From: Clostridia bacterium | GTDB taxonomy: Bacteria; Bacillota; Clostridia; Christensenellales; Borkfalkiaceae | NCBI GenBank assembly: GCA_017536205.1 | Contig: JAFXHX010000004.1 | Location: forward strand, 1 to 64,000 | Direction: 5' to 3' | DNA: 64,000 bases | Shown: in pieces, positions 48,078 to 64,000 of the stretch | Layout: every line of letters begins with the position of its first letter | Position numbering within the stretch: the stretch's first letter is position 1 | Program-made: the position numbers and the translations under genes | The notes under the pieces: generated by a model | The model's input: the letters and a program-made list of their open reading frames with translations, nothing else | Told to the model about the DNA's origin: nothing | The model's database searches: none

Positions 48078-49865
48078 ATGAAACAACTTACTTCACAAAG
48101 TTTAAGAGAACTTTACCTTTCCTTTTTTAAAGAGAAAGGTCATAAAATAATTCCGTCGGCAAGTTTAATTCCCGAAAACGACCCTTCAGTGCTTTTCACT
48201 ACTGCGGGTATGCACCCGTTAGTTCCTTACCTTTTAGGCGAAAAACACCCCGAAGGTACTAGACTTACCGACGTTCAAAAGTGCGTTAGAACGGGCGACA
48301 TTGAAGACGTTGGCGACCCATCTCACTGCACCTTTTTCGAAATGCTTGGCAACTGGTCGCTTGGCGATTACTTCAAAAAGGAAATGATTGCTTGGAGTTT
48401 CGAGTTTTTAACTAGCGAAAAATACCTTGGTATTCCCGTTGAAAAACTTGCAGTTACCGTGTTTGAGGGCGATGAAGACGCTCCACGCGATGAAGAGTCG
48501 GCAGGTTACTGGGAAAGCGCAGGTATTCCTAAAAATAGAATATTCTATCTTCCTAAAAAGCACAACTGGTGGATAGCAGGCAACGTTGGACCTTGTGGAC
48601 CTGACACCGAAATGTTTATAGACCGTGGTAGGCCTTGCGGTCCTGATTGCTCACCCGCTTGTTCTTGCGGTAACTTTTTAGAGATTTGGAACGACGTGTT
48701 TATGCAGTTCGAGAAAAAGGCGGACGGAAGTTACGAAAAACTTAAACAAAGAAACGTAGACACGGGTATGGGTCTTGAACGCACGCTTTCAATATTAAAC
48801 GGCGTTCCCACCGTTTACGATACCGACGTTTTCGAGGGTGCTAAACACGAAATTGAAAACTTAACGGGCAAAAAGTACGGCGAGAGTGACGAAATTACCA
48901 AAGCGTTTAGAATTATTTTAGACCACGTTAGAACTGCAACCTTTATGCTTGGCGACCAAAAGGGCGTAACCCCGTCTAACGTTGACCAAGGCTACGTTTT
49001 AAGAAGGCTTATTCGCCGTGCCGTTAGATACGGTAGGCAAATAGGTTTAAACGCAGGCGACCTTTCTAAAATATCTTTAAAGTTCGTTGAAAAATACGCA
49101 AGCGTTTACCCCGAACTTGAAGAAAACAAAGAAAAAATCGTTTTAGAACTTAACAAAGAAGAAGAAAAGTTTTCTAAAACGCTTAACGACGGGCTTAAAG
49201 AGTTTAACAAAGTGCTTAATTACGTTACGGGCAACGTTTTCCCAGGAAAAACTGCGTTTAGGCTTTTCGATACTTACGGTTTCCCCATAGAAATTACCAC
49301 CGAACTTGCAAGCGAAAAAGGTTTTACCGTTGACCGTGAAGGTTACGAAGAAGCCTTTAAAAAGCACCGTGAAAAATCGCAAGCAGGTAGCGAAAACAAG
49401 TTTAAAGGCGGTCTTGCCGAACAAAACGAAACCACCGCAAGATTACACACTGCAACTCACCTTTTAAACGCTGCGCTTAAAGTGGTTTTACAAGATGAAA
49501 ATATTAACCAACGTGGTTCAAACATAACCGTAGAGCGTTTGCGTTTCGACTTTAACTTCGATAGAAAAGTTACCCCCGAAGAACTTGAAAAGATAGAAGC
49601 GTGGGTAAACGAAGCAATCGAAAAAGACGTTCCCGTAGTTATGGAAGAAATGACCGTTGCCGAGGCAAAAGAGCAAGGCGCAGTCGGCATTTTCACTTCA
49701 AAGTACGGCGACAGGGTTAAGGTTTACACCATTGAAGGATATTCTAAAGAAATATGCGGTGGTCCTCACGCAAAATCAACCGGTGAACTTAAAAAGTTCA
49801 AAATCAAAAAAGAAGAAGCAAGTTCAGCCGGCGTAAGGCGTATTAAAGCCGTAATTCTTGATTAA
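48078..49865 (+). CDS. alaS: Short alanyl-tRNA synthetase without C-Ala domain
   Basis: Class II synthetase charging tRNA-Ala. The catalytic domain is complete ([54 protein letters not shown]), and the editing domain has [11 protein letters not shown] and [12 protein letters not shown], the zinc-binding HxxxH and CxxxH pattern. At 595 residues it stops right after the editing domain, lacking the DHHA1/C-Ala part found in the usual 870-residue form. No downstream ORF resembles the missing part. Shorter AlaRS forms exist in some lineages, so it is probably functional. Confidence 0.93.
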
Positions 49866-50004
49866 GTCCCTATAAGCGTCGTTATGCATCGTTTCTGCGT
49901 CGGTCTTGCGACCTTGATGACCACAAAGGTCTATCAATTCCGCAATTCCTTGCGAGCCTTCTCTCGCTTGCTTCTAGTGCCTTAAAACTTTTAAGACATA
50001 AAAT

Positions 50005-50034
50005 AGGCAGTGTTTGATGCACTGCCTTTTTTAT
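50005..50034 (+). terminator. Terminator after alaS, TTGA-loop type
   Basis: AGGCAGTG/CACTGCCT stem with a TTTGAT loop and T6, then ATTCCG. It lies 140 bases after the stop. The stretch 49866-50004 between them looks like a degenerate R1 unit (GTCTTGCGACCTTGATGACC). Confidence 0.85.
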
Positions 50035-50146
50035 TCCGTTATAACCGTCGCAATACTGCGTTAACTGCCGTCAATTCGTGACCGTAATGACCGACAAGGT
50101 CAATTACGCTAAGCGCCTTGCCGTCGAGCCTTGTCTTGCTTGGCTC
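50031..50146. repeat. Dispersed repeat R1 after the alaS terminator
   Basis: Starts ATTCCGTTATAACCGTCGC and continues into R2 at 50147. Contains a GACC...GGTC hairpin near 50090-50110 and GAGCC/GGCTC near 50125-50145. Confidence 0.8.
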
Positions 50147-50276
50147 TAACGTCTTGCGTCGCAACTTGCTATAATTGCCTACCCTTAAAGAGTTAAGGGT
50201 AAGGCTATAACGCAGTTGCTCCTTTTTCCCAAAAATCTTTTGCAGGCAAAATATTTTCGGGAACCCTATTAAATAT
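50147..50276. repeat. Dispersed structured repeat R2, copy c
   Basis: Joined to R1. Inner stem CCCTTAA/TTAAGGG with an AGAG loop, outer GCAACT/AGTTGC, and TCCCAAAAAT/ATTTTCGGGA. Confidence 0.75.
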
Positions 50277-50335
50277 CAGTTGTTACGGCTTTAGCAGAGT
50301 AGGGTTTAAAACATCACTTTATACGGCTTGTAAAT

Positions 50336-50367
50336 CAAAAAACTCTCACAAAAAGTGAGAGTTTTTT
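50336..50367 (-). terminator. Terminator of the acyltransferase gene
   Basis: ACTCTCAC/GTGAGAGT stem with A/T flanks directly 3' of the minus-strand gene at 50375. Same stem as 44085-44118. Confidence 0.85.
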
Positions 50368-50374
50368 AACTTTT

Positions 50375-51583
50375 TTATAGATTGTGGGATATTTTATAAA
50401 TGTTTTTTAAGGCAAAAATCCACTTCATAACAACTTTTGGGTTTTCCGGGTATATTCTAAAAATATCTTTGCCGTTTTGTATTTCAAAGTGCTTGCCAGG
50501 CTTAAACGGAGTTATAGGAAAGTTGCCCGCCCAAATAGTTAAGTTTACGTCTTCGCCGTTAAGATTGCCGTTTATTAAAAAGTTTTCTTTGTCGAGTGTA
50601 ACGGTGGCGAAACCAACCGTTTCAAAGCAATGCTTTTTGTCGTTAATTTTATGTACTTCAGCGTTCGTTTCAAGTTTAAAATTAGGCTTTAAAACTTCTT
50701 TTAAAACTTCGCTTTCAATAAAGGCGTGCCAGTCGGGTGGCATTTGATAAATAAGGGGCAGTTTTCCGCTTTGCTTAAACGTTCCGTAATTGTTGCTAAC
50801 CGCCTCATAGCCACACTTTTCGCAGTAAAGCGTGTTTTTGTTTTTAACCTTTATGCTAAACTCTTCTTTGCAGTGCGGGCAGGTATATAAAACGTTTTCA
50901 AGCCCCTCTACGTTGTTACCGTTTTTATAGGCGATTTTATTATTAAGGCTAGTTTCGTAAGCGTTAAAATATAGGTGAGAGCAAACGGTGTTATAAACTT
51001 CTTCAGCAGGGGTATTAGCAAGCGTTTCTTTATCGTAAAGTTTATAAACGTTTAAGGTTGTTTTACCACGCCTTTTAACCGTTGCCCATTTGGGGCTAGT
51101 TAAATAAGTACCGTTAATTTTAGCAACGTAAATATCGCAGTCGAACCACTTAAGCGTTTTTCCCGTTGCTAGTGGAATAGGCGTGGGCGTTCCTATTTCG
51201 GTCATAAGCCCGGCGGGGTAAAAAATAAGTTGCCCGTTATTATCTAAAACGTTTCGCATAGCGCGCATATCGGCAACGGTAGTTTGAAATTGATTTTTGC
51301 CTATACACCCAGCGCTTTCCATAATGGGCATAATTTTAATAGAGCGCAAAAACGAATTGCTCATAACCATATGCGCTCTACCTGGAATTGCGTGGTAAAG
51401 CCCTAAAAAGTCTATTTGCGATTCGTGATTGCAAATTATTACCCTTTTACACGGCTTTGTTCCTTTAAGTTCGTTTTTCTCAACCGTTAAGTTGTAAACG
51501 AACTTTGAAGCAAGGCAAGAAACCATTTTCAAAACGCCGTAATATATAGGATTTGGTTTTTTGTAAACGTCTTTCTTTTTCAT
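50375..51583 (-). CDS. PlsC-like acyltransferase with a zinc ribbon
   Basis: A 402-residue protein. The N-terminal half is a 1-acyl-glycerol-3-phosphate acyltransferase domain with NHESQID at 52-58 (the HxxxxD catalytic motif) and FYPAGLMTE in the place of FPEGTR. The C-terminal half has a zinc ribbon (CPHC near 231 and CEKC near 250) and ends with an extra domain. Such fusions are seen in Clostridia; the C-terminal part may bind an unusual acceptor. It has no strong membrane segment. It is monocistronic, and RBS TTGGTGA lies before the ATG. Confidence 0.8.
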   Translation of the reverse strand: MKKKDVYKKPNPIYYGVLKMVSCLASKFVYNLTVEKNELKGTKPCKRVIICNHESQIDFLGLYHAIPGRAHMVMSNSFLRSIKIMPIMESAGCIGKNQFQTTVADMRAMRNVLDNNGQLIFYPAGLMTEIGTPTPIPLATGKTLKWFDCDIYVAKINGTYLTSPKWATVKRRGKTTLNVYKLYDKETLANTPAEEVYNTVCSHLYFNAYETSLNNKIAYKNGNNVEGLENVLYTCPHCKEEFSIKVKNKNTLYCEKCGYEAVSNNYGTFKQSGKLPLIYQMPPDWHAFIESEVLKEVLKPNFKLETNAEVHKINDKKHCFETVGFATVTLDKENFLINGNLNGEDVNLTIWAGNFPITPFKPGKHFEIQNGKDIFRIYPENPKVVMKWIFALKNIYKISHNL

Positions 51584-51740
51584 AAATCACCAAATATTCA
51601 ATAACTTTATAATACTATTTTTTAGTTAAAAGCGCAAGGTTTTTTGTGCAAAACCCATTATATTGTGCAAAAGCGCAATAATACGCTTGATAAATATTTT
51701 TCGTTTTGCTATAATAATTTTATGAAAAAGGAGATGCGCT

Positions 51741-52148
51741 ATGTACTGTAAAAATTGTGGCAAACTTAACGATGACGACGCAAGATTTTGCTCGTCTTGT
51801 GGCGAGAAATTAGAAAGCGACTATTATCACGATTGCGACGAGAACGACTGCCGTGTTGAAGATTACGAAAGAAAAGATTACCAAAGGGCAAAATACGGCG
51901 AAGTTAACGAAAACGACGCGCCCAGCGTAGGTTACGGAATACTCTCGTTTTTTATTCCCATTGTAGGAATAATACTTTTTGTTACTTGGAACAAACAAAG
52001 CCCAAAAAAGGCAAAAAGTTGCATAATAGGCGCAATTATCGGTATAGTTGTTACCCTTATTTTTGAAGCGATAGGCGAATATTATTTACTTCCTATACTT
52101 GAAGAGTGGCTTGAAAGTTATATGGGCTACTACTCGCTTATTATTTAG
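51741..52148 (+). CDS. Zinc-ribbon membrane protein 1
   Basis: A 135-residue protein with an N-terminal zinc ribbon (MYCKNCGKLNDDDARFCSSC, CxxC...CxxC) and two hydrophobic segments near 60-80 and 90-115, the second followed by an acidic tail. Such small proteins are common in gut Bacillota and of unknown function. RBS AAGGAG. The next gene, nine bases on, has the same plan, so they are probably paralogues in one operon. Confidence 0.78.
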   Translation: MYCKNCGKLNDDDARFCSSCGEKLESDYYHDCDENDCRVEDYERKDYQRAKYGEVNENDAPSVGYGILSFFIPIVGIILFVTWNKQSPKKAKSCIIGAIIGIVVTLIFEAIGEYYLLPILEEWLESYMGYYSLII

Positions 52149-52156
52149 GAGAAGTT

Positions 52157-52477
52157 ATGTATTGTAAGTACTGTGGAACACAAGTTCCAGATGGCGCAAA
52201 GTTTTGCCCTAGTTGTGGCAAAGCGCTAAACGATGCGCCCGTTTGTGAAAATCGCCCCATGCCAGCGCCAGACGACGCCGGTGGTTTCGGTTGGGGATTT
52301 TTAGGGTTTATTATTCCCATTTTAGGTCTAGTGCTTTTTCTTATTTGGAAAGACGAGTATCCTTTGCGCGCTAAAAGTTGTGGTAAAGGCGCCTTAATAA
52401 GCGTTATCGTTTCCATAGTTATAGTGGTTTTATACTTTTTCTTTATTTTTGGATTGTTATTCCTATCTTTTGCTTGA
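52157..52477 (+). CDS. Zinc-ribbon membrane protein 2
   Basis: A 106-residue relative of the gene before it. CKYCGTQVPDGAKFCPSCGK forms the zinc ribbon, followed by GGFGWGFLGFIIPILGLVLF and a C-terminal hydrophobic segment. RBS AGGAG lies at the end of the previous gene. Both may be membrane sensors or scaffolds; no evidence for either. Confidence 0.78.
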   Translation: MYCKYCGTQVPDGAKFCPSCGKALNDAPVCENRPMPAPDDAGGFGWGFLGFIIPILGLVLFLIWKDEYPLRAKSCGKGALISVIVSIVIVVLYFFFIFGLLFLSFA

Positions 52478-52481
52478 TTTT

Positions 52482-52518
52482 AAGAACATAAAAAAGCGTG
52501 GCTTGATGCCACGCTTTT
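52482..52518 (+). terminator. Terminator after zinc-ribbon gene 2, TTGA-loop type
   Basis: GCGTGGC/GCCACGC stem (52496-52514) with TTGAT loop and T6. Third member of the terminator set whose loops and flanks are conserved and stems differ. Confidence 0.9.
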
Positions 52519-52667
52519 TTATTCCGTTATAGCCGTCGCAATACTGCGTTAACTGCCGTCAATTCGTGACCGTAATGACCGACAAGGTCAATTACGCCCA
52601 ACGCCTTGCCGTCGAGCCTTGTCTTGCTTGGCTCTAACGTCTTAAAATATCACTTTCTACAACCAAA
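52519..52667. repeat. Dispersed repeat R1 after zinc-ribbon gene 2
   Basis: Starts ATTCCGTTATAGCCGTCGC and runs to AAAATATCACTTTCTACAA. Nearly the same as the copies at 45751 and 50031. Confidence 0.8.
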
Positions 52668-52990
52668 AAGGTTAGTTGTGTCTGCCCCTTGTTGTCGAGC
52701 CTGCTTGTGCTTGTTTCTGCGGGCTTAAATATCACTTTATACAACGTTGATGTATTTAATCCTTGTCGGCGTGTCGAGCCTAGCCCAACTAGCAACTAAC
52801 GTCTTAAAAATATTACTTGCTACAACAACGTTGATGACAAAAAGGTCAATTACGCTAAGCGCCTTGACGTCGAGCCTTGTCTTGCTTGGCTCTAACGTCT
52901 TAAAATATCACTTTCTACAACTAACAAAAATTGCGAGCCTAGCCTAACTTGTTTCTGCGTAGCAACTTGCTATAATTGCCAACCCTTAAA
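52668..52990. repeat. Degenerate R1 repeats and partial R2
   Basis: At least two incomplete R1 units (end of one at about 52820, another from about 52840 to 52920 with GAGCCTTGTCTTGCTTGGCTC) and an R2 fragment from 52954 (GTAGCAACTTGCTATAATTGCC). No gene is supported in this stretch. Confidence 0.65.
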
Positions 52991-53034
52991 AACAACCCGC
53001 ATTTGCGTTAACTTTTTTATTCTATAAAAAATAT

Positions 53035-53052
53035 TCGTTAAAAAATTAACTA
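53035..53052. promoter_or_regulatory. Rex operator, upstream site
   Basis: TCGTTAA-AAAA-TTAACTA, one base in each half away from the consensus TTGTTAA-N4-TTAACAA. Located 28 bases before the promoter of the mdh operon. Confidence 0.7.
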
Positions 53053-53079
53053 ATTTTTGTAAATTGCTATCTTTTTTTG

Positions 53080-53108
53080 TTGTATATTTTAAAAAAATAT
53101 GGTAAAAT
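53080..53108 (+). promoter_or_regulatory. Promoter of the mdh-fum-hdr-frd operon
   Basis: TTGTAT (53080-53085), 17-base spacer, TAAAAT (53103-53108). A hairpin-like GCGAAGGG...CCCCTTTTCG follows in the leader. Confidence 0.75.
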
Positions 53109-53175
53109 AACCGTGTACATAGCGCGAAGGGCGGAAAATCACCCCTTTTCGTTGCTACTAATTTTTTGTAAAACA

Positions 53176-53193
53176 TTGTTAATTTTTTAACAA
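53176..53193. promoter_or_regulatory. Rex operator, perfect downstream site
   Basis: TTGTTAATTTTTTAACAA is a perfect inverted repeat with the four-base spacer typical of Rex. It lies between the -10 box and the mdh start, so binding would block elongation or initiation until NADH accumulates. Confidence 0.9.
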
Positions 53194-53235
53194 AGTGAAA
53201 GGCATTAAAACATTTTTATAGGGAGACAGTAAATT

Positions 53236-54183
53236 ATGAACAAGAAAATTACAATTATCGGCGCAGGAGCGGTTGGCTCGTCAATAGGTTACCTTTTAGT
53301 TGCGGGTGGAACTGCTTCGGAAATCGTTTTTATCGACGTTAACAAAGAAAAAGCGCTTGGCGAAGCAATGGATATTTACCAAGCAACGCCGTTCTTAAAC
53401 CCAACTATCGTAAGAGCGGGCGATTATCAAGATGCAGAAGGTTCTGACATTGTTATTATCGCATCGGGTTTAGCAAGAAAGCCTGGTCAAACTAGAATTG
53501 ACCTTGCTCAAACTAACGTTAACATTATGAAGTCGATTGCGCCCGAAATTGCAAAGGTGTGCCCTAACTCTATTTACGTTATAGTTGCTAACCCCGTTGA
53601 TATTTTAACTTACACTTTCCACCAAGTATCGGGCATTCCCCACAATCAAATTATCGGTTCGGGCACTTCGCTTGACACTGCAAGGCTTAAAACTCGTTTA
53701 AGCGAGATTTACGGCGTATCGCCCAAACAAATTGACGCAAACGTTTTCGGCGAACACGGCGACACTTCGTTTATTCCTTGGTCAATGGTAAGAATTGGTG
53801 GCGTTCCCATCGACGAATATTCAAAGGTAATTGACGGAACTAACGCAAAGTTTGCTTGTAGCAAAGAAGAAGTTATCGAATACGTTAGAAAGTCTGGTGG
53901 CGTTATCATTTCAAGAAAAGGCGCAACGTATAACGGCGTTGCCGCAGCGGTTGCTTACATTTGTAGGTGTTTATACAACGCAATAGACAGCGTTGTTTGC
54001 GTTTCGGTTTTATTAAAAGGCGAATACGGCATTGAAGACGTTTGCTTATCAATTCCCGCCGTTATCGGCATAGGTGGTATTAAGGCAACGCTTGCCCCCA
54101 CCTTAACCGAAGAAGAAGTTGAAAAACTTAAAATAAGCGCAAACGCTATGAAGGACGTTATAAATCAAGTAAACTGCAAATAA
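53236..54183 (+). CDS. Malate/L-lactate dehydrogenase family enzyme
   Basis: A 315-residue NAD-dependent 2-hydroxyacid dehydrogenase. GAGAVGSS (9-16) binds NAD, ANPVDILT and GEHGDTSF carry the catalytic Asp and His. Overall it resembles lactate dehydrogenases, but the substrate-specificity loop reads ARKPGQTR, with Arg81 where LDHs have Gln and MDHs have Arg. With fumarase next in the operon, malate dehydrogenase is the better reading. Clostridial enzymes of this subgroup are usually annotated as L-lactate dehydrogenase. RBS GGGAGAC; ten bases before fumC. Confidence 0.85.
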   Translation: MNKKITIIGAGAVGSSIGYLLVAGGTASEIVFIDVNKEKALGEAMDIYQATPFLNPTIVRAGDYQDAEGSDIVIIASGLARKPGQTRIDLAQTNVNIMKSIAPEIAKVCPNSIYVIVANPVDILTYTFHQVSGIPHNQIIGSGTSLDTARLKTRLSEIYGVSPKQIDANVFGEHGDTSFIPWSMVRIGGVPIDEYSKVIDGTNAKFACSKEEVIEYVRKSGGVIISRKGATYNGVAAAVAYICRCLYNAIDSVVCVSVLLKGEYGIEDVCLSIPAVIGIGGIKATLAPTLTEEEVEKLKISANAMKDVINQVNCK

Positions 54184-54192
54184 GGAGTAATT

Positions 54193-55557
54193 ATGAAATA
54201 TCGCATTGAGAAAGACACTATGGGCGAAATGCAAGTTCCCGCCGATAGATATTGGGCTGCACAAACTCAAAGAAGTTATCAAAACTTTAAAATAGGCGAA
54301 GAAATTATGCCAAGGGAAATTACCCACGCTTTCGGCATACTTAAAAAAGCCGCCGCTCTTGCAAACCACCGCTTAGGCAAAATTACCGATGAAAAACTCT
54401 CGGCAATTTCAAAGGCGTGTGACGAAGTGATATCTGGTCAGCTTAACTCACACTTCCCACTCGTAGTTTGGCAAACGGGTTCGGGCACGCAGTCTAATAT
54501 GAACGCAAACGAAGTTATTGCAAATCGCGGTAACGAAATTGCGGGCAAAAAACTTCTTCATCCCAACGACGATATTAACAAATCGCAATCAAGTAACGAT
54601 ACTTTCCCAACCGCAATGCACATTGCAGCCGTTATTGCCGTTGAAGATAAGGTTATTCCCGCAATAAACGGGCTTATCGAAACGTTTATAAGGCTTGAAA
54701 AAGAAAACGAAGGAATAGTAAAGTCGGGAAGGACTCACCTTCAAGACGCCGTTCCCGTAAGTTTCTCGCAAGAAATAAGCGGCTGGAGAAATATGCTTGA
54801 AAAAGCAAAAGGTATGCTTGAACTTTCGCTTGTGGGTTTAAAAGAACTTGCGCTTGGCGGAACTGCGGTAGGCACCGGTCTTAACGCTCCCAAGGGCTTT
54901 GCCGAAGCAGTTGCAGAAGAAGTTTCCGCTTTAACGGGCAAAAAGTTCGTTACTGCCGAAAATAAGTTCCACGCCCTTACTAGTAAAGACGAAATCGTGT
55001 TTGCTCACGGCGCACTTAAAGCACTTGCTGCAAATATGATGAAAATTGCAAACGACGTAAGGTGGTTATCTTCTGGTCCACGTTGTGGCTTGGGTGAAAT
55101 ATTTATTCCCGAAAACGAGCCCGGCTCGTCAATAATGCCAGGTAAAGTTAACCCCACTCAATGCGAATCAATGACGATGGTTGCCGTTCAAGTAATGGGT
55201 AACGACACTGCAGTTGGTATTGCCGCTTCGCAAGGCAATTTTGAACTCAACGTGTTTATGCCCGTTATCATTTACAATTTCTTGCAGTCTGCAAGGCTTC
55301 TTGCCGACGGTATCAATTCGTTTAACGCTAACTGCGCTTCGGGCATTAGGGCTAACAAGGAAAAAATGAACCACAACCTTTACAATTCGCTTATGCTCGT
55401 AACGGCGCTCAACCCGTATATCGGTTACGAAAACGCCGCAAAGACGGCAAAACTTGCTCACAAAGAAAACATCAGCCTTAAAGAAGCGTGCGTATCGCTT
55501 GGCTTTTTATCGGCTGAAGAGTTTGATAAGGTGTTCCACCCGGAACAAATGGTGTAA
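54193..55557 (+). CDS. fumC: Fumarate hydratase, class II
   Basis: A 454-residue iron-independent fumarase interconverting malate and fumarate. The start RIEKDTMGEMQVPADRYWAA, the motif GSGTQSNMNANEV, the active-site TGRTHLQD-type region (SGRTHLQDAVP) and the signature GSSIMPGKVNP are present. It is full length. It is translated right after mdh and three bases before the HdrB-like gene, which ties it to fumarate reduction. Confidence 0.96.
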   Translation: MKYRIEKDTMGEMQVPADRYWAAQTQRSYQNFKIGEEIMPREITHAFGILKKAAALANHRLGKITDEKLSAISKACDEVISGQLNSHFPLVVWQTGSGTQSNMNANEVIANRGNEIAGKKLLHPNDDINKSQSSNDTFPTAMHIAAVIAVEDKVIPAINGLIETFIRLEKENEGIVKSGRTHLQDAVPVSFSQEISGWRNMLEKAKGMLELSLVGLKELALGGTAVGTGLNAPKGFAEAVAEEVSALTGKKFVTAENKFHALTSKDEIVFAHGALKALAANMMKIANDVRWLSSGPRCGLGEIFIPENEPGSSIMPGKVNPTQCESMTMVAVQVMGNDTAVGIAASQGNFELNVFMPVIIYNFLQSARLLADGINSFNANCASGIRANKEKMNHNLYNSLMLVTALNPYIGYENAAKTAKLAHKENISLKEACVSLGFLSAEEFDKVFHPEQMV

Positions 55558-55559
55558 TT

Positions 55560-56342
55560 ATGAAGTTTACGTATTATCCCGGCTGTACGTTAAGAACGAA
55601 AGCCAAACAATTAGATATTTACGGCAGAAAGTCGCTTGAAGCGCTTGGCGTTGACTTTGAAGAAGTTAAAGAGTGGCAGTGCTGTGGCGCCGTTTATCCC
55701 ATTTCTCGCGATGAAGTTGCAACTAAACTTTCAGCCGTAAGAACGCTTAACAGCGCAAAAGTTGAAGGCGAAGGCAAACTCTTAACGCTTTGCTCTGCTT
55801 GCCATCACGTTTTAAAGCGCGTTAACGGCGATATGAAAAACGACGAAAATATTCGCTTTAAAGCAAACAACTATTTAGCGCTTGAAGAAGAATACGCCGG
55901 CGAAACCGACGTTATTCACTACCTTGAACTTTTAAGAGATTACGTTGGCTTTGACAATATTAAAAGAGCCGTTAAAAATCCCATAAATAAAAAGGTTGGC
56001 GCATATTACGGTTGCTTGCTTTTACGCCCCTCGAAAGAACTTGCTTTCGATAGCCCCGAAAACCCCACCATTATTGAAGACTTTATAAAAGCAATAGGTG
56101 GCACTCCCGTAATTTACGGTATGAGAAACGAGTGTTGCGGTGCTTACGTTTCGGCAACTAATAAAGAAATTGCCGTTAAAAAGAGCGTTAAGGTAACTGA
56201 CGACGCTATGGGTCACGGCGCAGAACTTTTAGTAACGGCTTGCCCGTTATGTATGTATAACCTTACCGAAAACGGCAATAAAAAAGTTCCCGTATACTAT
56301 TTTACCGAACTTCTTGCCGAAGCGCTTGGCGTAAAGGAGTAA
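55560..56342 (+). CDS. hdrB: HdrB-like CCG-domain protein
   Basis: A 260-residue subunit with two CCG domains that bind noncubane iron-sulfur clusters. The first is C9-x31-C41C42-x35-C78xxC81, an exact fit to the consensus. The second, YYGC...NECCGAYV...CPLC, has spacings 39 and 34. In heterodisulfide reductase this is the catalytic subunit; here it probably passes electrons to the fumarate reductase pair. It lies two bases after fumC and before HdrC. Confidence 0.9.
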   Translation: MKFTYYPGCTLRTKAKQLDIYGRKSLEALGVDFEEVKEWQCCGAVYPISRDEVATKLSAVRTLNSAKVEGEGKLLTLCSACHHVLKRVNGDMKNDENIRFKANNYLALEEEYAGETDVIHYLELLRDYVGFDNIKRAVKNPINKKVGAYYGCLLLRPSKELAFDSPENPTIIEDFIKAIGGTPVIYGMRNECCGAYVSATNKEIAVKKSVKVTDDAMGHGAELLVTACPLCMYNLTENGNKKVPVYYFTELLAEALGVKE

Positions 56343-56345
56343 ACT

Positions 56346-56732
56346 ATGGATAAACTTGAACAAGTAAAACTCGTTAAAGAAAGAAGTGGTACCGACGCTA
56401 GAAAGTGCATGAAATGCGGTAAGTGCTCGGGTAGATGCCCAGCCTATAACGAAATGGACGTTAAACCCCATCAATTCGTTTCATATATAGAAAAGGGCGA
56501 TATAGATAAACTTTTAAACAGCAAATCGCTTTACACTTGTCTTTCGTGCTTTGCGTGCGTTGAGCGTTGCCCCCGTGGCGTTGCTCCCGCTAACGTTATA
56601 GAAGCGGTAAGGCAAGAAGTTATTCGCGTTCAAGGCGAAAACAAAATACAAGCCGAAAAAGTTCCTGAAATGATAGATGAAACTATTCCACAACAACTTT
56701 TGGTTAGCATGTTTAGAAAGTTAAACAAATAA
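56346..56732 (+). CDS. hdrC: HdrC-like iron-sulfur protein
   Basis: A 128-residue protein with two [4Fe-4S] motifs: CMKCGKCSGRCP near 18-29 and CLSCFACVERCP near 62-73. HdrC carries electrons between HdrA and HdrB. It ends normally and the next gene begins ten bases later. Confidence 0.9.
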   Translation: MDKLEQVKLVKERSGTDARKCMKCGKCSGRCPAYNEMDVKPHQFVSYIEKGDIDKLLNSKSLYTCLSCFACVERCPRGVAPANVIEAVRQEVIRVQGENKIQAEKVPEMIDETIPQQLLVSMFRKLNK

Positions 56733-56742
56733 GGTGATAAAA

Positions 56743-58734
56743 ATGCAAAGAATAGGTGTATTTGTATGTTGGTGCGGTTCTAACATCGCTTCAACGGTTG
56801 ACGTAAAAAAGGTAGCAGAAGTATTAAAGGCCGAGCCAGGCGTTGTAATATCTGAAAACTATCAATATATGTGTTCTGAAAACGGACAGGCGCTTATAAG
56901 AAACGCTATTAAAGAGCATTCTCTTACGGGTATTGTAGTTTGTTCGTGTTCGCCAAGAATGCACGAAGCAACTTTTAGAAGAACTGCCGAAAGCGCAGGT
57001 CTTAACCCCTATATGGTTGAAATTGCCAACATTAGAGAACAATGCTCGTGGATTCATAAAGATATGGAAGAGGCTACCGAAAAAGCAATTATTTTAGGTA
57101 GGTCTGCCATTGCAAAATTAAAACTTAACGCACCGCTCACTTCGGGCGAAAGCGCAGTAGTAAAACGCGCTCTCGTTATAGGTGGCGGTATTGCAGGTAT
57201 TCAATCTGCACTCGATATTGCCGAAGCGGGTTTTGAAGTTGATATAGTTGAAACTTCGCCAACCATCGGTGGCAATATGGCTAAACTTGATAAAACGTTC
57301 CCCACTCTCGACTGTGCGGCGTGTATTTTAACGCCAAAAATGGTTGACTGCGCTCAAAACGAGAAAATAGACATTTTAACTTATAGCGAAGTTGAGTCGG
57401 TTAAAGGTTTCGTGGGCAACTTTAAAGTTCAAATTAGAAAAAAAGCAAGGTTCGTTGACGAGAAGAAGTGCACGGGCTGTGGCGAATGTATGCAAAAATG
57501 CCCCTCTAAAAAAGGTCTTAACGACTTCAATATGGGCCTTAACACTCGCCCCGCTATTTATATTCCGTTTGCGCAAGCAATTCCTAACGTTGCCGTTATC
57601 GACCCCGAACAATGCTTAAAACTTAAAAACGGAAAGTGCGGTCTTTGCGCTATGAAATGTAACGTTAACGCAATCGACTACACTCAAAAAGACGAAATTA
57701 TCGAAAGAGAATACGGCGCAATCGTAGTAGCAACGGGTTACAAGCCCATTTCGCTTGAAAACTTTAACGAATACGGCTACTCGCAGTATAAAGACGTTGT
57801 AACGTCGCTTGAACTTGAACGTTTAATGAACGCAGCAGGTCCTAGCGAAGGTCACCTTGTTCGTCCGTCTGACCATAAAGAGCCAAAGGTTATAACCTTT
57901 ATTCAATGCGTAGGTTCAAGAGATACTTCGGGTTGCGGTAAGCCATACTGCAGTAAGATTTGCTGTATGTACACTGCAAAGCACGCAATGCTTATTCGTG
58001 AAAAATATCCCGATACCGAAGTTCACGTATTCTACATAGACGTTAGAACGCCTGGTAAAAACTACGACGAGTTCTTCCGTCGCGCAGTTGAACAATACGG
58101 CGTTGACTACGTTAAGGGTATGGTTGGCAAGGTTTACGAAGAAAACGGTAAACTTATGGTACAAGGTGCCGACCTTATAAACAACGAACAAGTGGTTATT
58201 CCTTCCGATTTAGTAGTACTTGCCGCGGCAATCGAGCCAAGCCCCACCGTTAGAAAAATTGCAACGATGGTAACTGCAAGTATCGATACTAACAACTTCT
58301 TAACCGAAGCCCACGCAAAACTTCGCCCCGTAGAAAGCCCCACGGCGGGAATATTCTTATCGGGCGTTTGTCAAGGACCTAAAGATATTCCTGAAACGGT
58401 TTCGCAAGCAAGCGCGTGCGCCGCAAAGGTTATAGGCTTACTTGCTAAAGACAAACTTAAATGCAACGCGTCGGTAGCACACTCAGACGAAACGCTTTGT
58501 TCGGGTTGTTCGGTATGCGCTAACGTTTGTCCTTACGGCGCTATCACTTACGTTGATAAAGAGTTTAGGCTTGGCGGTGGCAAAACCGAGTTAAGAAGAG
58601 TTGCAAGCGTTAACCCTGCGGTATGTCAAGGTTGCGGTGCTTGTACGGTAACTTGTCCTTCGGGCGCTATGGACCTTAAAGGATTTACAACCGGTCAAAT
58701 TATGGCGGAGGTAGATGCAATATGCAAGAGATAA
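56743..58734 (+). CDS. hdrA: HdrA-like flavoprotein, electron bifurcating
   Basis: A 663-residue FAD and multi-[4Fe-4S] protein. GGGIAGIQSALDIAEAG near 150 binds FAD; GGNMAKLDKTFPTLDCAACILTPKM is the characteristic HdrA segment with the cluster ligands. Ferredoxin-type motifs CTGCGECMQKCP and C-terminal CSGCSVCANVCP and CQGCGACTVTCP follow. The bifurcating flavin site would split an NADH pair between a low-potential ferredoxin and HdrC/B. ATG at 56743 is preferred over the GTG at 56734 because of the spacing to AAGGTGAT. It overlaps the MvhD-like gene. Confidence 0.93.
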   Translation: MQRIGVFVCWCGSNIASTVDVKKVAEVLKAEPGVVISENYQYMCSENGQALIRNAIKEHSLTGIVVCSCSPRMHEATFRRTAESAGLNPYMVEIANIREQCSWIHKDMEEATEKAIILGRSAIAKLKLNAPLTSGESAVVKRALVIGGGIAGIQSALDIAEAGFEVDIVETSPTIGGNMAKLDKTFPTLDCAACILTPKMVDCAQNEKIDILTYSEVESVKGFVGNFKVQIRKKARFVDEKKCTGCGECMQKCPSKKGLNDFNMGLNTRPAIYIPFAQAIPNVAVIDPEQCLKLKNGKCGLCAMKCNVNAIDYTQKDEIIEREYGAIVVATGYKPISLENFNEYGYSQYKDVVTSLELERLMNAAGPSEGHLVRPSDHKEPKVITFIQCVGSRDTSGCGKPYCSKICCMYTAKHAMLIREKYPDTEVHVFYIDVRTPGKNYDEFFRRAVEQYGVDYVKGMVGKVYEENGKLMVQGADLINNEQVVIPSDLVVLAAAIEPSPTVRKIATMVTASIDTNNFLTEAHAKLRPVESPTAGIFLSGVCQGPKDIPETVSQASACAAKVIGLLAKDKLKCNASVAHSDETLCSGCSVCANVCPYGAITYVDKEFRLGGGKTELRRVASVNPAVCQGCGACTVTCPSGAMDLKGFTTGQIMAEVDAICKR

Positions 58735-59162
58735 AGAAAGATTACAAGCCTTTAATAGTTGCGTTCTGCTGTAACTGGTGTTCATACGCCGGTGCAGACC
58801 TTGCGGGCTCGTCAAGGCTTTCGTACCCTGCTGAAGTTAAAATTATAAGAGTGCCCTGCTCGTGCAGAGTTAACCCCACCTTTATTTTAAAGGCTTTCCA
58901 AAGGGGAGCAGACGGCGTTATTATTTGTGGTTGCCACCCCGGTGACTGCCACTACACTTCGGGCAACTATTTTGCAAGAAGAAGAATGTCGTTACTATTT
59001 AGTATGCTCGACTATCTTGGAATAGAGCGTGAAAGAACTAGAGTAGAGTGGGTTTCTGCCGCTGAAGGCGCAAAGTTCTCTGCCGTTATGAACGATTTTG
59101 CAAAAACGGTTACCGAACTTGGCGAAAATAAGAGGTTGGAGGATTTAAGATGCAAAAATTAA
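58722..59162 (+). CDS. MvhD-like iron-sulfur protein
   Basis: A 146-residue protein like the delta subunit of methyl-viologen-reducing hydrogenase, also called FlxD when linked to Flx. CCNWCSYAGADLAG and CSCRVNP with CGCHPGDCHY hold a [2Fe-2S] cluster. It bridges the NADH-oxidising subunits to HdrA. It overlaps both neighbours by 13 bases, a strong sign of translational coupling. Confidence 0.9.
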   Translation: MQEIKKDYKPLIVAFCCNWCSYAGADLAGSSRLSYPAEVKIIRVPCSCRVNPTFILKAFQRGADGVIICGCHPGDCHYTSGNYFARRRMSLLFSMLDYLGIERERTRVEWVSAAEGAKFSAVMNDFAKTVTELGENKRLEDLRCKN

Positions 59163-60124
59163 ACGAATTAGCACTTGAAAAAGCCAAAACTCTTTTAGCA
59201 AACGGAACGGTAGCAAGAGTTCTCGGCTGGAAAAAAGGCGAACTTGGTTACGATTTAGAGCCTGCCGTATTTTATAGCGAAAGCGATTTAGAAGGTTTTA
59301 TATACAACGCTTTTTCGGGCGCAAACCTTTCTAAATACTTAATTGAAGAAAGCAAAAAAGAAGGCAAGGTTTTAGTATTTTTAAAACCGTGCGATAGTTA
59401 CAGTTTTAACCAACTTGTTAAAGAGCACAGAATAGTTAAAGAAAACGTTTACACCGTTGGCATAGAGTGCCAAGGCAAGTTAGACGTTAAAAAACTTAAA
59501 GAAAAAGGTATTGAAATAGTAGACGGCGTTATTGAAAACGTTGACGACGTTACCGTTATATCGCTTGGCAAAGAATACAACTTCGTAAAAGAAGAAGTTC
59601 TTTTAGGCAAGTGCTCGGTATGCGAAAAACACCTTTTATCTTACGACGAAGTTATTTCGCTTCACGATAAGCGCACCCCTAAACTTGATAGGTTTGAAAT
59701 CGTTAAAAAGTTAGAGGCGATGACTGCCGACGAAAGATACGCTTTTTGGAAAGGCGAACTTTCAAAGTGTATACGTTGCAACGCTTGCAGAAACGTTTGC
59801 CCCGCTTGTAACTGCTTAAAGTGCGTTTTCGATAACGACGCATCAGGAATTGCAAGCAAAGCAAATAGCGATAGTTTTGAAGAAAAACTCTTCCATATTA
59901 TAAGGGCGTTCCACGTTGCAGGCAGATGTACCGACTGTGGCGAGTGTTCAAGGGTTTGCCCACAAGCAATTCCCCTTCACCTTTTAAACAGAAAGTTCAT
60001 TAGCGATATAAACAGGCTTTACGGTGAGTTCCAAGCCGGTGAAGACGACGTTACAAAAGGTCCTTTAACGGCTTACACCACGGGTGACGCAGAGCCTAGC
60101 GAAGTTTTTGGAGGGAATAAATAA
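59150..60124 (+). CDS. Flx-type iron-sulfur subunit with FrhB-like N-terminus
   Basis: A 324-residue protein. The N-terminal part resembles the FrhB/FdhB-like fold (VLVFLKPCDSYSFNQLVKEH), and the C-terminal third has two [4Fe-4S] motifs (CIRCNACRNVCPACNC near 217-232 and CTDCGECSRVCP near 263-274). This fits FlxC/HyhB-like subunits of NADH-linked HdrABC-FlxABCD complexes. It overlaps its neighbours by 13 bases and 1 base. Exact subunit naming is uncertain. Confidence 0.82.
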   Translation: MQKLNELALEKAKTLLANGTVARVLGWKKGELGYDLEPAVFYSESDLEGFIYNAFSGANLSKYLIEESKKEGKVLVFLKPCDSYSFNQLVKEHRIVKENVYTVGIECQGKLDVKKLKEKGIEIVDGVIENVDDVTVISLGKEYNFVKEEVLLGKCSVCEKHLLSYDEVISLHDKRTPKLDRFEIVKKLEAMTADERYAFWKGELSKCIRCNACRNVCPACNCLKCVFDNDASGIASKANSDSFEEKLFHIIRAFHVAGRCTDCGECSRVCPQAIPLHLLNRKFISDINRLYGEFQAGEDDVTKGPLTAYTTGDAEPSEVFGGNK

Positions 60125-61149
60125 TGAAGAAAATATCTTGTGAAAACCTTTCAAAATTATATAGCGAAATAGCGTCGCTTCAAGAACTTTATCTTCCCGT
60201 TAAAGAGTCGGGCGTTACTAACTACAAAAAGTACGAAAACGGCGCAGAAGTAGATATAAAAACTTTAAAAACCGTTAAATCTGCAAAAGATTTCTTCTTC
60301 CCCCAAACGGAAGATATGATGGAGTTTAAAGTTAACGGCAAAAATATTGAAATTAACGATGCTAGAAAAGTTGCAAATCCCTTCGTAATTTTTGGCGTTC
60401 GTGCGTGCGACCTTAAAAGTTTCGATATTTTAGATAAAGTGTTCCTTCAAGAGCCCGTTGACACTATGTATAAAGCAAAGCGCGAAGCGTCAACTATTAT
60501 AACGCTTGCGTGCAATAATCCCGAACAAACTTGTTTTTGTAAAACTTTCGGCATAGATGCGTCTAACCCTGCGGGAGATATAAGCGCAATTATAGTTAAC
60601 GGCGAAATGCTTTTCGAGGCAAAAACCGAAAAGGGCGCAGAACTTTTAAACAAACTTACTTGCCTTGAAGATGCAGGCGATACTGATGCCGACGCTGAAA
60701 GGGCGGAAATTGTTAAAAAGAGCGAAAATCTTCCCTTTGCAAACCTTAATTTAGATGAGTTCAAAGGCGAAAATCTTATGAAACTTTTCGATAGACCCGA
60801 GTGGGCTGAACTTTCAAAGGCTTGCCTTGGTTGCGGTACTTGCACTTTCGTTTGCCCAACCTGTCAATGCTTTGATATTCGCGACTTTATAACTAACGAA
60901 GGTGTTAGAAGATTTAGGTGTTGGGACTCGTGTATGTATAGCGAGTTTACCAAAATGGCTGCGGAAAACCCCAGAAAAACCCAACTTCAACGCTATCGCC
61001 AAAGATTTATGCACAAACTCGTTTATTTCCCACAAAATAACGATGGGGTTTACGGTTGCGTAGGTTGTGGCAGATGCGTTCAAAAATGCCCGCAAAACCT
61101 TAATATAATTAAGGTTATCAAAAAATTAGGAGGTAAAAACAATGACTAA
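60124..61149 (+). CDS. Flx-type iron-sulfur subunit, AsrA-like
   Basis: A 341-residue protein like the A subunit of anaerobic sulfite reductase and FlxB. Two ferredoxin motifs are near the C-terminus: CLGCGTCTFVCP (about 239-250) and CVGCGRCVQKCP (about 316-327), and the middle has GVRACDLKSFDILD. The sulfite reductase catalytic subunit (AsrC) is not in the cluster, so sulfite reduction is unlikely. It overlaps the next gene by eight bases. Confidence 0.85.
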   Translation: MKKISCENLSKLYSEIASLQELYLPVKESGVTNYKKYENGAEVDIKTLKTVKSAKDFFFPQTEDMMEFKVNGKNIEINDARKVANPFVIFGVRACDLKSFDILDKVFLQEPVDTMYKAKREASTIITLACNNPEQTCFCKTFGIDASNPAGDISAIIVNGEMLFEAKTEKGAELLNKLTCLEDAGDTDADAERAEIVKKSENLPFANLNLDEFKGENLMKLFDRPEWAELSKACLGCGTCTFVCPTCQCFDIRDFITNEGVRRFRCWDSCMYSEFTKMAAENPRKTQLQRYRQRFMHKLVYFPQNNDGVYGCVGCGRCVQKCPQNLNIIKVIKKLGGKNND

Positions 61150-61969
61150 CGAAGCGTTATTCCCCGTTGTCGGCGTTATTACCGACATAAGACGTGACAC
61201 GCCCGACGTTAAAACGTTTAGAGTAGTTACTCCCGACGGTAAAAAGGCGTTCGAGCATATGCCAGGACAATGCGCAATGCTTTCTATTCCGGGCGTAGGC
61301 GAAGCGATGTTCTCTATCACGTCGTCGCCAACGAACACCGAGTTTATGGAGTTCTCTATTAAAAAATGTGGTTGCTTAACTTCGTGGCTTCACGCTTGTG
61401 AAGTTGGGCAAATGGTTACTATTCGTGGACCTTACGGCAACGGTTTCCCCGTAGAAACTGCTTTCAAAGGCAAAAATATGCTTTTCATTGCAGGTGGTAT
61501 CGGTTTAGCGCCCTTGCGTTCGGTTATCAACTACGTTCGCGCGCACAGAGCAGATTATGGCACCGTTGATATCGTTTACGGCTCGCGCTCGATGGACGAC
61601 CTTGTTGACTTTAAAGAAATACAAGAAGAGTGGAAAAACGAAAAAGACTTTAACGTTTATCTTACGATTGACCGTCCGCAAGACGGTTGGGACGGGCACG
61701 TTGGTTTCGTTCCCGCTTACGTTAAAGAAGTTAATATTCCCACCGATAGAACTGCTATCTTATGTGGCCCACCCATTATGATAAAGTTCACGTTGCAAGC
61801 GCTTTTAGAACTCGGCTTTGAAAAAACGCAAGTTTACACCACGCTTGAGTTTAGAATGAAATGCGGTATAGGCAAATGTGGCCGTTGCAACGTTGGTAAT
61901 CAATATATTTGTAAAGACGGTCCGGTATTCCGTATGGACCAACTCGAAGAACTTCCTTCGGAATATTAA
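61142..61969 (+). CDS. NAD(P)H-oxidising flavoprotein, FlxA/AsrB-like
   Basis: A 275-residue ferredoxin-NADP reductase-type protein: FAD-binding SITSSP-type region (MFSITSSPTNTEF), NAD-binding FIAGGIGLAPLRSVI and a C-terminal [2Fe-2S] segment (CGIGKCGRCNVGNQYIC). This is the entry point for NADH electrons into the Flx-Hdr complex. It overlaps the previous gene and is followed 17 bases later by the FrdB-like gene. Confidence 0.9.
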   Translation: MTNEALFPVVGVITDIRRDTPDVKTFRVVTPDGKKAFEHMPGQCAMLSIPGVGEAMFSITSSPTNTEFMEFSIKKCGCLTSWLHACEVGQMVTIRGPYGNGFPVETAFKGKNMLFIAGGIGLAPLRSVINYVRAHRADYGTVDIVYGSRSMDDLVDFKEIQEEWKNEKDFNVYLTIDRPQDGWDGHVGFVPAYVKEVNIPTDRTAILCGPPIMIKFTLQALLELGFEKTQVYTTLEFRMKCGIGKCGRCNVGNQYICKDGPVFRMDQLEELPSEY

Positions 61970-61986
61970 AATGGAGATAAACTATT

Positions 61987-62661
61987 ATGGAAAAAATGGT
62001 AAACGTTTACTTTTTCGGTAAAAAATATCAAGTTCCCGAAAGCCTTACTATTATGAAGGCTATGGAATACGCCGGCTATCAACTTATTCGTGGTTGTGGT
62101 TGCCGTAACGGTTTCTGTGGCGCGTGCGCAACGCTTTATAGAATACACGGCAAAACCGAACTTAAAACTTGCCTTGCTTGTCAACAACAAGTAGAAGAAG
62201 GTATGTACGTTGCAACTCTTCCTTTCTTCCCACTCGTTAAGCAAGTTTACGATATTCAAAAAGTTAAGCCGACTGAACAAATTATGATGCAACTTTACCC
62301 CGAAATATACAGTTGCATAGGCTGTAACGCATGCACTAAAGCCTGCCCACAAAGCCTTAAAACTATGCAATATATCGCATACGCTCAACGTGGCGAATAC
62401 GAAAAGTGCGCAGAAGAGTCTTTCGACTGCATTATGTGTGGTCTTTGCTCGTCAAGATGCCCCGCTGGTATTTCTCACCCCCAAGTTGCAATTTTAGCAC
62501 GCCGTTTATACGGCAAATACATTGCTCCCGACTGCAAACACCTTATTGATAGGGTAACCGAAATCAACGAAGGCAAGCACGACGAAAGCATGGCAGATAT
62601 TATGAACAAATCTCTCGAAGAGCAAAAAGCGCTTTACAACACGAGAGATATTGAAAAGTAA
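61987..62661 (+). CDS. Soluble FrdB/TfrB-like iron-sulfur subunit
   Basis: A 224-residue protein with an N-terminal [2Fe-2S] domain (CGCRNGFCGACATL) and two further cluster motifs, CIGCNACTKACP (near 105-116) and CIMCGLCSSRCP (near 141-152). This resembles the iron-sulfur subunit of fumarate reductases and the first part of methanogen thiol:fumarate reductase TfrB, which continues with CCG domains; here those are on HdrB. RBS GGAGA precedes the ATG. No membrane anchor gene follows in view. Confidence 0.85.
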   Translation: MEKMVNVYFFGKKYQVPESLTIMKAMEYAGYQLIRGCGCRNGFCGACATLYRIHGKTELKTCLACQQQVEEGMYVATLPFFPLVKQVYDIQKVKPTEQIMMQLYPEIYSCIGCNACTKACPQSLKTMQYIAYAQRGEYEKCAEESFDCIMCGLCSSRCPAGISHPQVAILARRLYGKYIAPDCKHLIDRVTEINEGKHDESMADIMNKSLEEQKALYNTRDIEK

Positions 62662-62672
62662 GGAGGGGCGTT

Positions 62673-64000
62673 ATGTATTCTTATACTCAAGAACAACTCG
62701 ATTCAATTAAAAAAGTAGAGGCAACCCGTCAAGAAAGACTTTCTAATCTTCACCGCAGAATGACTGCCGAAGAAAAAGACGAGGTTTTAAAAAATTACCA
62801 CCCCGACTACATAGAAAGCGCGTACGAAACGCTTAAAGTTGGCCCTAACAAAGGCGAAAAAGTTCTTCACGAACTTGCTAACCTTTTACAAGGTAACACC
62901 CGTTTAGACCCCGCGAAAATCGACCTTTCAAAAATTGACTACGACGTTGACGTTTTAGTTATAGGTGGTGGTGGCGCAGGTTCTTCTGCCGCTATTACTG
63001 CGCACGCAAACGGCGCAAACGTTATGATTGTTACCAAACTTCGTATAGGCGATGCTAACTCGATGATGGCTGAAGGTGGTATTCAAGCGGCAGATAAGCC
63101 CAACGATAGCCCCGCTCAGCACTATCTCGATGCGTTTGGTGGTGGTCACTTTGCCGCTAAACCTTGCCTTCTTGAAAAACTCGTTAAAGAAGCACCCGAC
63201 GCTATTAGGTGGCTTTCAGACCTTGGCGTTATGTTCGATAAAACTGCAGACGGCGAAATGGTAACCACCCACGGTGGCGGTACTTCAAGAAAACGTATGC
63301 ACGCTTGTAAAGACTATTCGGGCGCCGAAATTATGAGAACGCTTCGTGACGAAGTTATAAATAGAAATATTCCCGTAGTTGACTTTACCGCCGCTATCGA
63401 AATTATTAAAGACGAAAACGGCAACGCTGCAGGCGCAGTTCTTCAAAATATGGAAACGGGCGAAATCTTAATTGCTAGGGCAAAAACCGTTATTATTGCA
63501 ACGGGTGGCGCAGGCAGAATACACTATCAAGGTTTCCCCACTTCAAACCACTACGGCGCTACGGCAGACGGTTTAGTTCTTGCATACCGTGCAGGCGCAA
63601 AACTCTTATACGCCGATACTTTACAATATCACCCCACGGGCGCAGCAGAGCCCACGCAGATTTACGGTGCGCTCGTAACTGAAAAAGTTCGTTCGCTCGG
63701 CGCTCAACTCGTTAATAAAAACGGCGAGCCTTTCGTGTATTCGCTCGAAACGCGCGACGTAACCGCATCTACTATTATTAGAGAATGTAAAGGTCGCTCA
63801 AACGGCGTTAAAACTACCGATGGTGAAGGCGTTTGGCTCGACACCCCGATGATAGAAATTATCGGTGGCGAAGGCACTATTGAAAAACGTATTCCCGCAA
63901 TGATGAGAATGTTTGGTAAATACGGCATAGATATTAGAAAAGAGCCTATCTTAATTTACCCCACGCTCCACTATCAAAACGGCGGTATCGATATCGATGC
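62673..64000 (+). CDS. Fumarate reductase/succinate dehydrogenase flavoprotein, partial
   Basis: Starts at ATG 62673 after AAGGAGGGG and runs off the window after about 442 residues. After a 90-residue leader, the FAD motif DVLVIGGGGAGSSAA appears, then GGIQAA, HGGGTSRKR, a HPTG motif, an ETRDV segment (the RD of the active site) and HYQNGGI with the conserved His. These match FrdA/SdhA/TfrA. The N-terminal extension with KKVEATRQERL is typical of clostridial soluble forms. It would reduce fumarate to succinate with electrons from the FrdB-like partner. Confidence 0.92.
   Translation, partial: MYSYTQEQLDSIKKVEATRQERLSNLHRRMTAEEKDEVLKNYHPDYIESAYETLKVGPNKGEKVLHELANLLQGNTRLDPAKIDLSKIDYDVDVLVIGGGGAGSSAAITAHANGANVMIVTKLRIGDANSMMAEGGIQAADKPNDSPAQHYLDAFGGGHFAAKPCLLEKLVKEAPDAIRWLSDLGVMFDKTADGEMVTTHGGGTSRKRMHACKDYSGAEIMRTLRDEVINRNIPVVDFTAAIEIIKDENGNAAGAVLQNMETGEILIARAKTVIIATGGAGRIHYQGFPTSNHYGATADGLVLAYRAGAKLLYADTLQYHPTGAAEPTQIYGALVTEKVRSLGAQLVNKNGEPFVYSLETRDVTASTIIRECKGRSNGVKTTDGEGVWLDTPMIEIIGGEGTIEKRIPAMMRMFGKYGIDIRKEPILIYPTLHYQNGGIDID

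Follow-up and report, generated by a model that had tools for sequence, protein, structure and literature searches.

The question raised by the window analysed here, that is, by the whole stretch of 64,000 nucleotides from a Clostridia bacterium contig, is whether an open reading frame of 315 amino acids, starting with ATG and matched in Pfam by both Ldh_1 domains, encodes a lactate dehydrogenase or a malate dehydrogenase. The initial annotation preferred the second, on account of an arginine in the motif ARKPGQTR, at a position said to be Gln in lactate and Arg in malate dehydrogenases, and of a fumC gene alongside.

According to the published signatures, lactate dehydrogenases (LDH) combine Q102 with D or E199 and T246, and type 3 malate dehydrogenases (MalDH type 3) combine R102 with M199 and A or S246, position 102 being the main discriminator between the two (PMC9486893, as far as its available text goes). 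Our alignment of 192 distinct family members bears this rule out. We sampled 149 genomes across the phylum, that of the window among them, and 62 of their genes exceed the cut-off of TIGR01771 (the NCBIfam equivalog for L-LDH); 47 of these genes have Q at position 102, nine have R, three I and three P. All 18 distinct genes with M199 and A246, which are MalDH type 3-like, have R. Since these columns agree with the published signatures, the residue numbering used here matches that of PMC9486893. The window protein reads Q68, R102, R109, D168, R171, H195, S199, T246 and V250, with the usual catalytic residues R109, D168, R171 and H195 retained; the motif begins at residue 80, and its Arg81 does fall in column 102.

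Arginine thus replaces the Q102 of a canonical L-LDH, and T246 is accompanied by S199 where a canonical enzyme has D or E. Identity as a MalDH type 3 (R102, M199, A/S246, P250) is rejected as well, R102 being the only residue shared and the score against TIGR01763, the model for this type, being 209.9 bits for a cut-off of 351.85. What the protein does carry is the signature of the intermediate-group malate dehydrogenases, namely R102 combined, in part of the group, with T246 (as given in the accessible text of PMC9486893). Nor is Arg102 there by chance, since 26 of the 28 sequences aligned from this genome and related ones have it (the other two being Q102 types), and since R102 goes with T246 in all 80 named relatives, the best 80 of at least 593 found in a GTDB scan.

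Against the malate reading, it must be said that the curated models favour LDH. The window protein passes both NF000824 (L-lactate dehydrogenase; 347.3 for a cut-off of 339) and TIGR01771 (322.3 for 303.55), and reaches the cut-off of none of the listed models for malate dehydrogenase, coming closest with NF004863 (277.7 for 283). These scores, together with the LDH-like T246 and V250 and with best PDB matches that carry the LDH name, are what speaks for a plain L-lactate dehydrogenase that would stand ahead of fumC by accident; yet the second-best of these matches, 1y6j, is named LDH and has Arg at 102. The cut-off of TIGR01771 does not separate LDH from the R102 type, since all ten R102 relatives chosen for the model test (nine from the window clade defined below and L026, of the 1y6j type) pass it; eight of the ten pass NF000824. 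L010, L012, L081 and L086 pass NF004863 too, which is a subfamily model and not an equivalog, and they could therefore be named either way under NCBI's rules. The nine R102 genes of the phylum sample that exceed TIGR01771 are the window gene, L154, L210 (whose residue 102 is uncertain, with an insertion in the loop), L212, L213, L215, L216, L219 and L220, the window clade being represented among them by the window gene alone. The suspicion voiced at the outset, that many annotations of this subgroup may be wrong, consequently finds its support in the scores of the models rather than in deposited names, and the R102 clade offers an example of what appears, from the profile models, to be a systematic naming problem.

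Phylogeny sets the window protein apart from the Q102 enzymes. In quick trees of 90 rows, computed with and without five diagnostic columns and with SH-aLRT as the only support, it belongs to a 36-row clade (SH-aLRT 98 with all columns, 95 without the diagnostic ones). In a careful tree of 53 rows, rooted on MalDH type 3 and likewise repeated without the five columns, it belongs to a clade of 21 rows, all of them R102/T246 (support 100/98, and 100/97 without the diagnostic columns). Starting from the root, this tree gives genes with R102/M199/T246 (L151, L222), then the window clade, then the join of an R102 group containing PDB 1y6j with a 20-row LDH clade (91/84; 97/79 without the diagnostic columns). 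The latter clade (93/97; 94/94 without these columns), whose support is just under the starred level, combines the Q102 LDHs with L213 and L216, which are R102/E199 genes, and the window protein lies outside it. The branching order is the same without the diagnostic columns, so that in both careful trees the window protein comes off after MalDH type 3 and before canonical LDH. The trees were built without the enzymes of A. fulgidus and I. islandicus, which are solved members of the intermediate group (PMC9486893, in its available part).

The deep branch order is not firm: both quick trees put the 1y6j group among the LDHs, the L151/L222/L223 group is also found there when the diagnostic columns are removed, and in an AU test a joint clade of the window and 1y6j groups had the higher likelihood and was not rejected (p-AU 0.829). 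With this in mind, the order would fit the path described in the available part of PMC9486893, in which T246 came before Q102.

Several other genes in these trees deserve a word. The idea that R102 genes form one clade is rejected, as L213 and L216 sit among the LDHs. Together with L154 and L215 they are R102/E199/T246 genes, from four phylum-sample genomes that each also have a Q102 gene, and the nesting of L213 and L216 within Q102 LDHs may possibly reflect a return to malate or to another specificity. In the careful trees L151, L222 and L223 (R102/M199/T246) are the next to branch off after MalDH type 3, and their place is unstable in the quick tree without diagnostic columns; judged by their residues and position, they are candidates for an early step towards LDH.

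The second argument of the initial annotation, the adjoining fumC, holds too, and can be extended: the gene, a clear equivalog, starts 9 bp downstream, and it is only the first of a series (Table 1). From the LDH-like gene through frdA the successive genes overlap or are separated by 1-17 bp, and a fumarase, Flx-Hdr proteins, a fumarate reductase and a transporter are found in a single same-strand run.

Table 1. Coordinates of the LDH-like gene, its diagnostic motif and the genes that follow
Feature	Position	Strand	Basis or remark
LDH-like malate dehydrogenase, intermediate type (predicted)	53236..54183	+	ORF, Pfam/NCBIfam profiles, alignment, trees
ARKPGQTR codons, residues 80-87	53473..53496	+	Arg81 = 53476-53478, counted from ORF start
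fumC, class II fumarate hydratase	54193..55557	+	TIGR00979 738.8 bits, cut-off 664.75
HdrB-like CCG-domain protein	55560..56342	+	PF02754
HdrC-like 4Fe-4S protein	56346..56732	+	profile matches
HdrA-like FAD/4Fe-4S protein	56734..58734	+	HdrA2 model 799 bits, under cut-off 1100
FlxD/MvhD-like protein	58722..59162	+	FlpD, PF02662
FlxC-position 4Fe-4S protein	59150..60124	+	Flx letter from position
FlxB-position 4Fe-4S protein, sulfhydrogenase beta / AsrA-related	60124..61149	+	PF17179; Flx letter from position
FlxA-like FAD/NAD-binding reductase	61142..61969	+	PF00970, PF00175, PF10418
FrdB/TfrB-like, 2Fe-2S + 4Fe-4S domains	61987..62661	+	profile matches
FrdA/TfrA-like fumarate reductase flavoprotein	62673..64000, ends 64280 on contig (535 aa)	+	related to TfrA/SdhA/FrdA
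PF06826 permease	64357-65721, beyond window	same strand	76 bp after frdA end

FrdA passes none of the listed NCBIfam models, and fumarate as its substrate thus rests on retained residues and on context. Aligned with succinate dehydrogenase flavoproteins, it keeps the stretches HPTG, TE..R, HY..GGI and NRL.GNSL. The divergence of FrdA, and the occurrence of P and I at position 102 elsewhere in the family, would suit a 2-hydroxyacid dehydrogenase acting on some other dicarboxylate or on a bulky 2-oxoacid, with an operon that reduces a substrate other than fumarate. We regard this as very improbable, considering how clearly FumC is identified, the four stretches kept by FrdA, and the good fit of R102 with R171 to oxaloacetate. 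As to other features of FrdA, it has Asn where succinate dehydrogenase flavoproteins have the His of HTV.A.GG, and about 90 residues precede the part that aligns with them. The PF06826 family presumably includes the succinate exporter SucE.

Upstream of the operon, the approximately 750 bp at 52478-53235 have no Rfam match, nor does any part of 49000-64000 at the gathering threshold, and counts of promoter-like sites (6, against 4.1 in shuffles, sd 2.3) and of terminator-like sites (3, against 2.3, sd 1.6) give no usable signal. Further upstream are two small tandem ORFs, at 51741-52148 and 52157-52477, apparently a duplicated pair; each starts with a zinc-ribbon-like MYCK.CG motif and has hydrophobic stretches.

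Is this arrangement more than a peculiarity of one contig? A search of 61 genomes, window included, gave a match in 29, and a 20-kb context was examined for 20 of the 31 places listed, again with the window, 17 of the 20 having at least 47% identity. All ten downstream genes through frdA are present in 15 of these 17 loci, the window being one of them, and the permease in 11 of the 15. The two exceptions, L040 (at 60% identity) and L048, have none of the downstream genes, and neither have the three loci at 40-43% identity. Among the best 80 of the relatives from the GTDB scan (66 from Bacillota, 13 from Spirochaetota and one labelled Methanobacteriota), cluster genes occur at 67 loci and fumC at 48. 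The other 13 lack any cluster gene in the DNA examined, eight of them with at least 9.5 kb downstream. Where at least 9.5 kb could be seen (50 relatives), 36 have all nine Hdr/Flx/Frd genes, six have some and eight have none; in two of the 36, L080 and L087, the cluster lies upstream of the gene. L075, a Methanocorpusculum-labelled contig with an R102 gene and a bacterial-type fumC, is probably a contaminating contig. A plasmid search gave matches of at most 42.5% identity among the 15 of 127 records listed.

Because these 80 relatives had been picked by likeness to the window protein, we added a sample anchored on FrdA. Of 291 genomes sampled from the class, 40 have a close FrdA (E 1e-150 or better), that of the window being one of them, and the contexts of the other 39 were examined. 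No LDH-family gene is seen in twelve of these, whose upstream DNA is shorter than 9 kb. The remaining 27 have 9 kb or more; 19 of them carry an LDH-family gene at the cluster, in every case R102/T246 (13 with fumC and six without it), and eight, including the diverged clusters L267, L268 and L269, do not. A Q102 or type 3 gene stands beside the cluster in none of these 27 loci. This sample overlaps in part with that of the best 80 (L234 and L086 lie on contigs of equal length, 5512510).

The control with Q102 genes points in the same direction: in the phylum sample, with flanks of 1.5-4 kb, FumC, HdrB, HdrA or FrdA is near none of 57 Q102 loci (47 distinct genes). This, together with the FrdA-anchored sample, leads us to reject chance adjacency to fumC. 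It also adds to the case against a plain L-lactate dehydrogenase, which we reject as very improbable on residue 102, on the position outside the Q102 clade and on the conserved context. Arg102 by itself, on the other hand, is rejected as a marker of the operon. With the same sample and its short flanks, none of the 11 R102/T246 loci that fall outside the window clade has cluster genes nearby, and one of 20 R102/A246 loci does (L135, with weak HdrB and HdrC matches), so that it is the window clade, rather than R102 in general, that is tied to the operon. Pfam scans of one neighbouring ORF for each of ten cluster-less relatives revealed no common theme and no recognised lactate gene; the neighbours include acetate kinase by L116 and DUF3887 by L082 and L099. 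One Lachnospiraceae MAG (L107:7712 and 10001) has, besides the R102 gene, a second family member of the P102 type some 2.3 kb upstream of it.

The genome (1.39 Mb, 93.55% complete, a figure that limits the weight of any absence) has a single PF00056 (Ldh_1) match, the window protein itself, and, at this completeness, no Ldh_2 match. A GTP-type PEP carboxykinase (PEPCK) is present (877.5 bits for a cut-off of 504), and the ATP-type was sought and not found in this 93.55% of the genome. There are also a malic-enzyme-like gene, a carboxylase/decarboxylase subunit and three 2-Hacid_dh genes, none of which exceeds the cut-off for D-lactate dehydrogenase among the models listed. The window gene, as the sole PF00056 match in a genome where Ldh_2 gave none, is therefore the one candidate we could find for the reaction linking PEPCK-GTP to FumC, and with it as the sole candidate for the malate dehydrogenase role the gene content allows a path from PEP to succinate to be traced.

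Residue 102, the tree position, the operon and the lack of any other Ldh_1 or of any Ldh_2 match all support malate over lactate dehydrogenase, as originally proposed, and we think it highly probable that the product is an L-malate dehydrogenase that uses NADH, belongs to the group lying between MalDH type 3 and canonical LDH, and works in a PEP-to-succinate branch, its gene standing first in the operon. The roles of Arg102, Arg171, His195 and Asp168 are well established in this family. In the window enzyme, Arg81 (Arg102) would pair with the second carboxylate of oxaloacetate, Arg150 (Arg171) would hold the alpha-carboxylate, and the proton would come from His174 (His195) with Asp147 (Asp168), the hydride being given by NADH. 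Oxaloacetate supplied by the GTP-type PEP carboxykinase would then be reduced to malate, which FumC would convert to fumarate and FrdAB to succinate, with electrons from NADH passing through the Flx-Hdr proteins. Reduction of ferredoxin is probably coupled to that of fumarate, and succinate is probably exported by the PF06826 permease.

Some facts do not sit easily with this. Ser199 and Thr246 differ from the Met199 and Ala/Ser246 of MalDH type 3, Thr246 being described as unfavourable for oxaloacetate in the accessible text of PMC9486893, and the association with the operon has its exceptions (the 13 relatives without a cluster gene, the eight FrdA clusters without the gene, and L040). Thr246 leaves room for pyruvate activity, and the window enzyme perhaps has a weak one. 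One may go further and suppose a dual enzyme, using oxaloacetate and pyruvate both at useful rates and yielding succinate or lactate according to substrate and redox state. The pairing of T246 with R102 and the lack of another Ldh_1 or an Ldh_2 match in the genome are in line with this, some T246 intermediate-group enzymes being reported to use both substrates (PMC9486893, available part) and the authors of work on C. cellulolyticum suggesting that each of their two enzymes can carry out either reaction (PMC3268733, available part). The constancy of R102 in the best 80 relatives, the company of fumarase and fumarate reductase, and the lack of any Q102 or type 3 gene beside the 27 FrdA-anchored clusters argue the other way, and we consider the dual enzyme unlikely, though worth keeping in view. 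Kinetic data for the window clade were not found in the literature searched.

We come back to the predicted malate dehydrogenase to compare it with known systems. Two C. cellulolyticum genes, Ccel_0137 with Arg81 and Ccel_2485 with Gln86, were both LDH genes according to the initial predictions; a Ccel_0137 mutant had 28% of the wild-type malate dehydrogenase activity, indicating that Ccel_0137 is the main malate dehydrogenase, and the two enzymes are said to overlap in specificity (PMC3268733, as far as its available text goes). Ccel_0137 and Cthe_0345 resemble the window gene in having Arg at 102 and in having first been predicted as LDH, whereas Ccel_0137 adjoins malic enzyme and the window gene fumC and the Hdr/Flx/Frd genes (PMC3268733, same portion). 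PDB 1y6j, like the window protein, has R102 and T246 in the alignment; unlike it, 1y6j groups in the careful trees with L026 and L030, outside the window clade, and these two have Q199 where the window protein has S199. This structure, named L-lactate dehydrogenase, is presumably from C. thermocellum, and from its Arg it is probably Cthe_0345, the malate dehydrogenase of that species, an enzyme that has reportedly been the subject of a kinetic study by Taillefer in 2015.

The published intermediate group shares R102 with T246 with the window clade, which differs from the three main combinations of that group by adding Q68 and I/V250 (PMC9486893, in its available part); Q68 is found in 18 of 19 of L001-L020, and I or V250 in all of the best 80 of at least 593 relatives. 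MalDH type 3 (TIGR01763; PDB 3tl2 and 1guz) has in common with the window protein R102 and the presumed reaction, but it has M199, A246 and P250 in place of S199, T246 and V250.

For the operon, the closest parallel is the succinate operon of Pseudoclostridium thermosuccinogenes, in which fumarate hydratase, Flx-Hdr and fumarate reductase are joined by a hypothetical protein as possible transporter, and for which a coupling of fumarate reduction with the reduction of ferredoxin has been proposed; PMC7282089, in its available part, cites for it a 2019 preprint by Koendjbiharie and van Kranenburg. The two organisms share these gene types and a GTP-type PEPCK, and they differ in that the window operon begins with a malate dehydrogenase, none being named for P. 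thermosuccinogenes in that part of PMC7282089. A malate dehydrogenase as first gene of such an operon is not mentioned in the literature searched, of which coverage was partial. Succinate operons and R102 clostridial malate dehydrogenases first predicted as LDH are thus already in print; the annotation correction is sound, and the window gene is a well-placed addition to known kinds, of modest novelty.

A broader proposal is that the operon covers, with soluble enzymes throughout, the whole way from oxaloacetate to succinate, with an R102/T246 malate dehydrogenase, a fumarase and an electron-bifurcating NADH:fumarate/ferredoxin reductase as a single unit, and that a quinone-independent, ferredoxin-yielding succinate fermentation in many gut Clostridia and Treponema has been hidden by the L-lactate dehydrogenase name of its first enzyme. 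We advance this tentatively, giving it slightly less than an even chance, the bifurcating fumarate reductase being itself proposed and putative. The practical consequence is that metagenome models infer the formation of lactate or succinate from gene names, and since a curated equivalog names every tested member of the clade L-lactate dehydrogenase, producers of succinate may be scored as producers of lactate. For the relatives of this gut-type bacterial gene, guesses made from genomes about which bacteria form lactate or succinate can therefore be wrong, and the pairing of R102 with T246 in the clade should be useful for testing the origin of LDH from MalDH.
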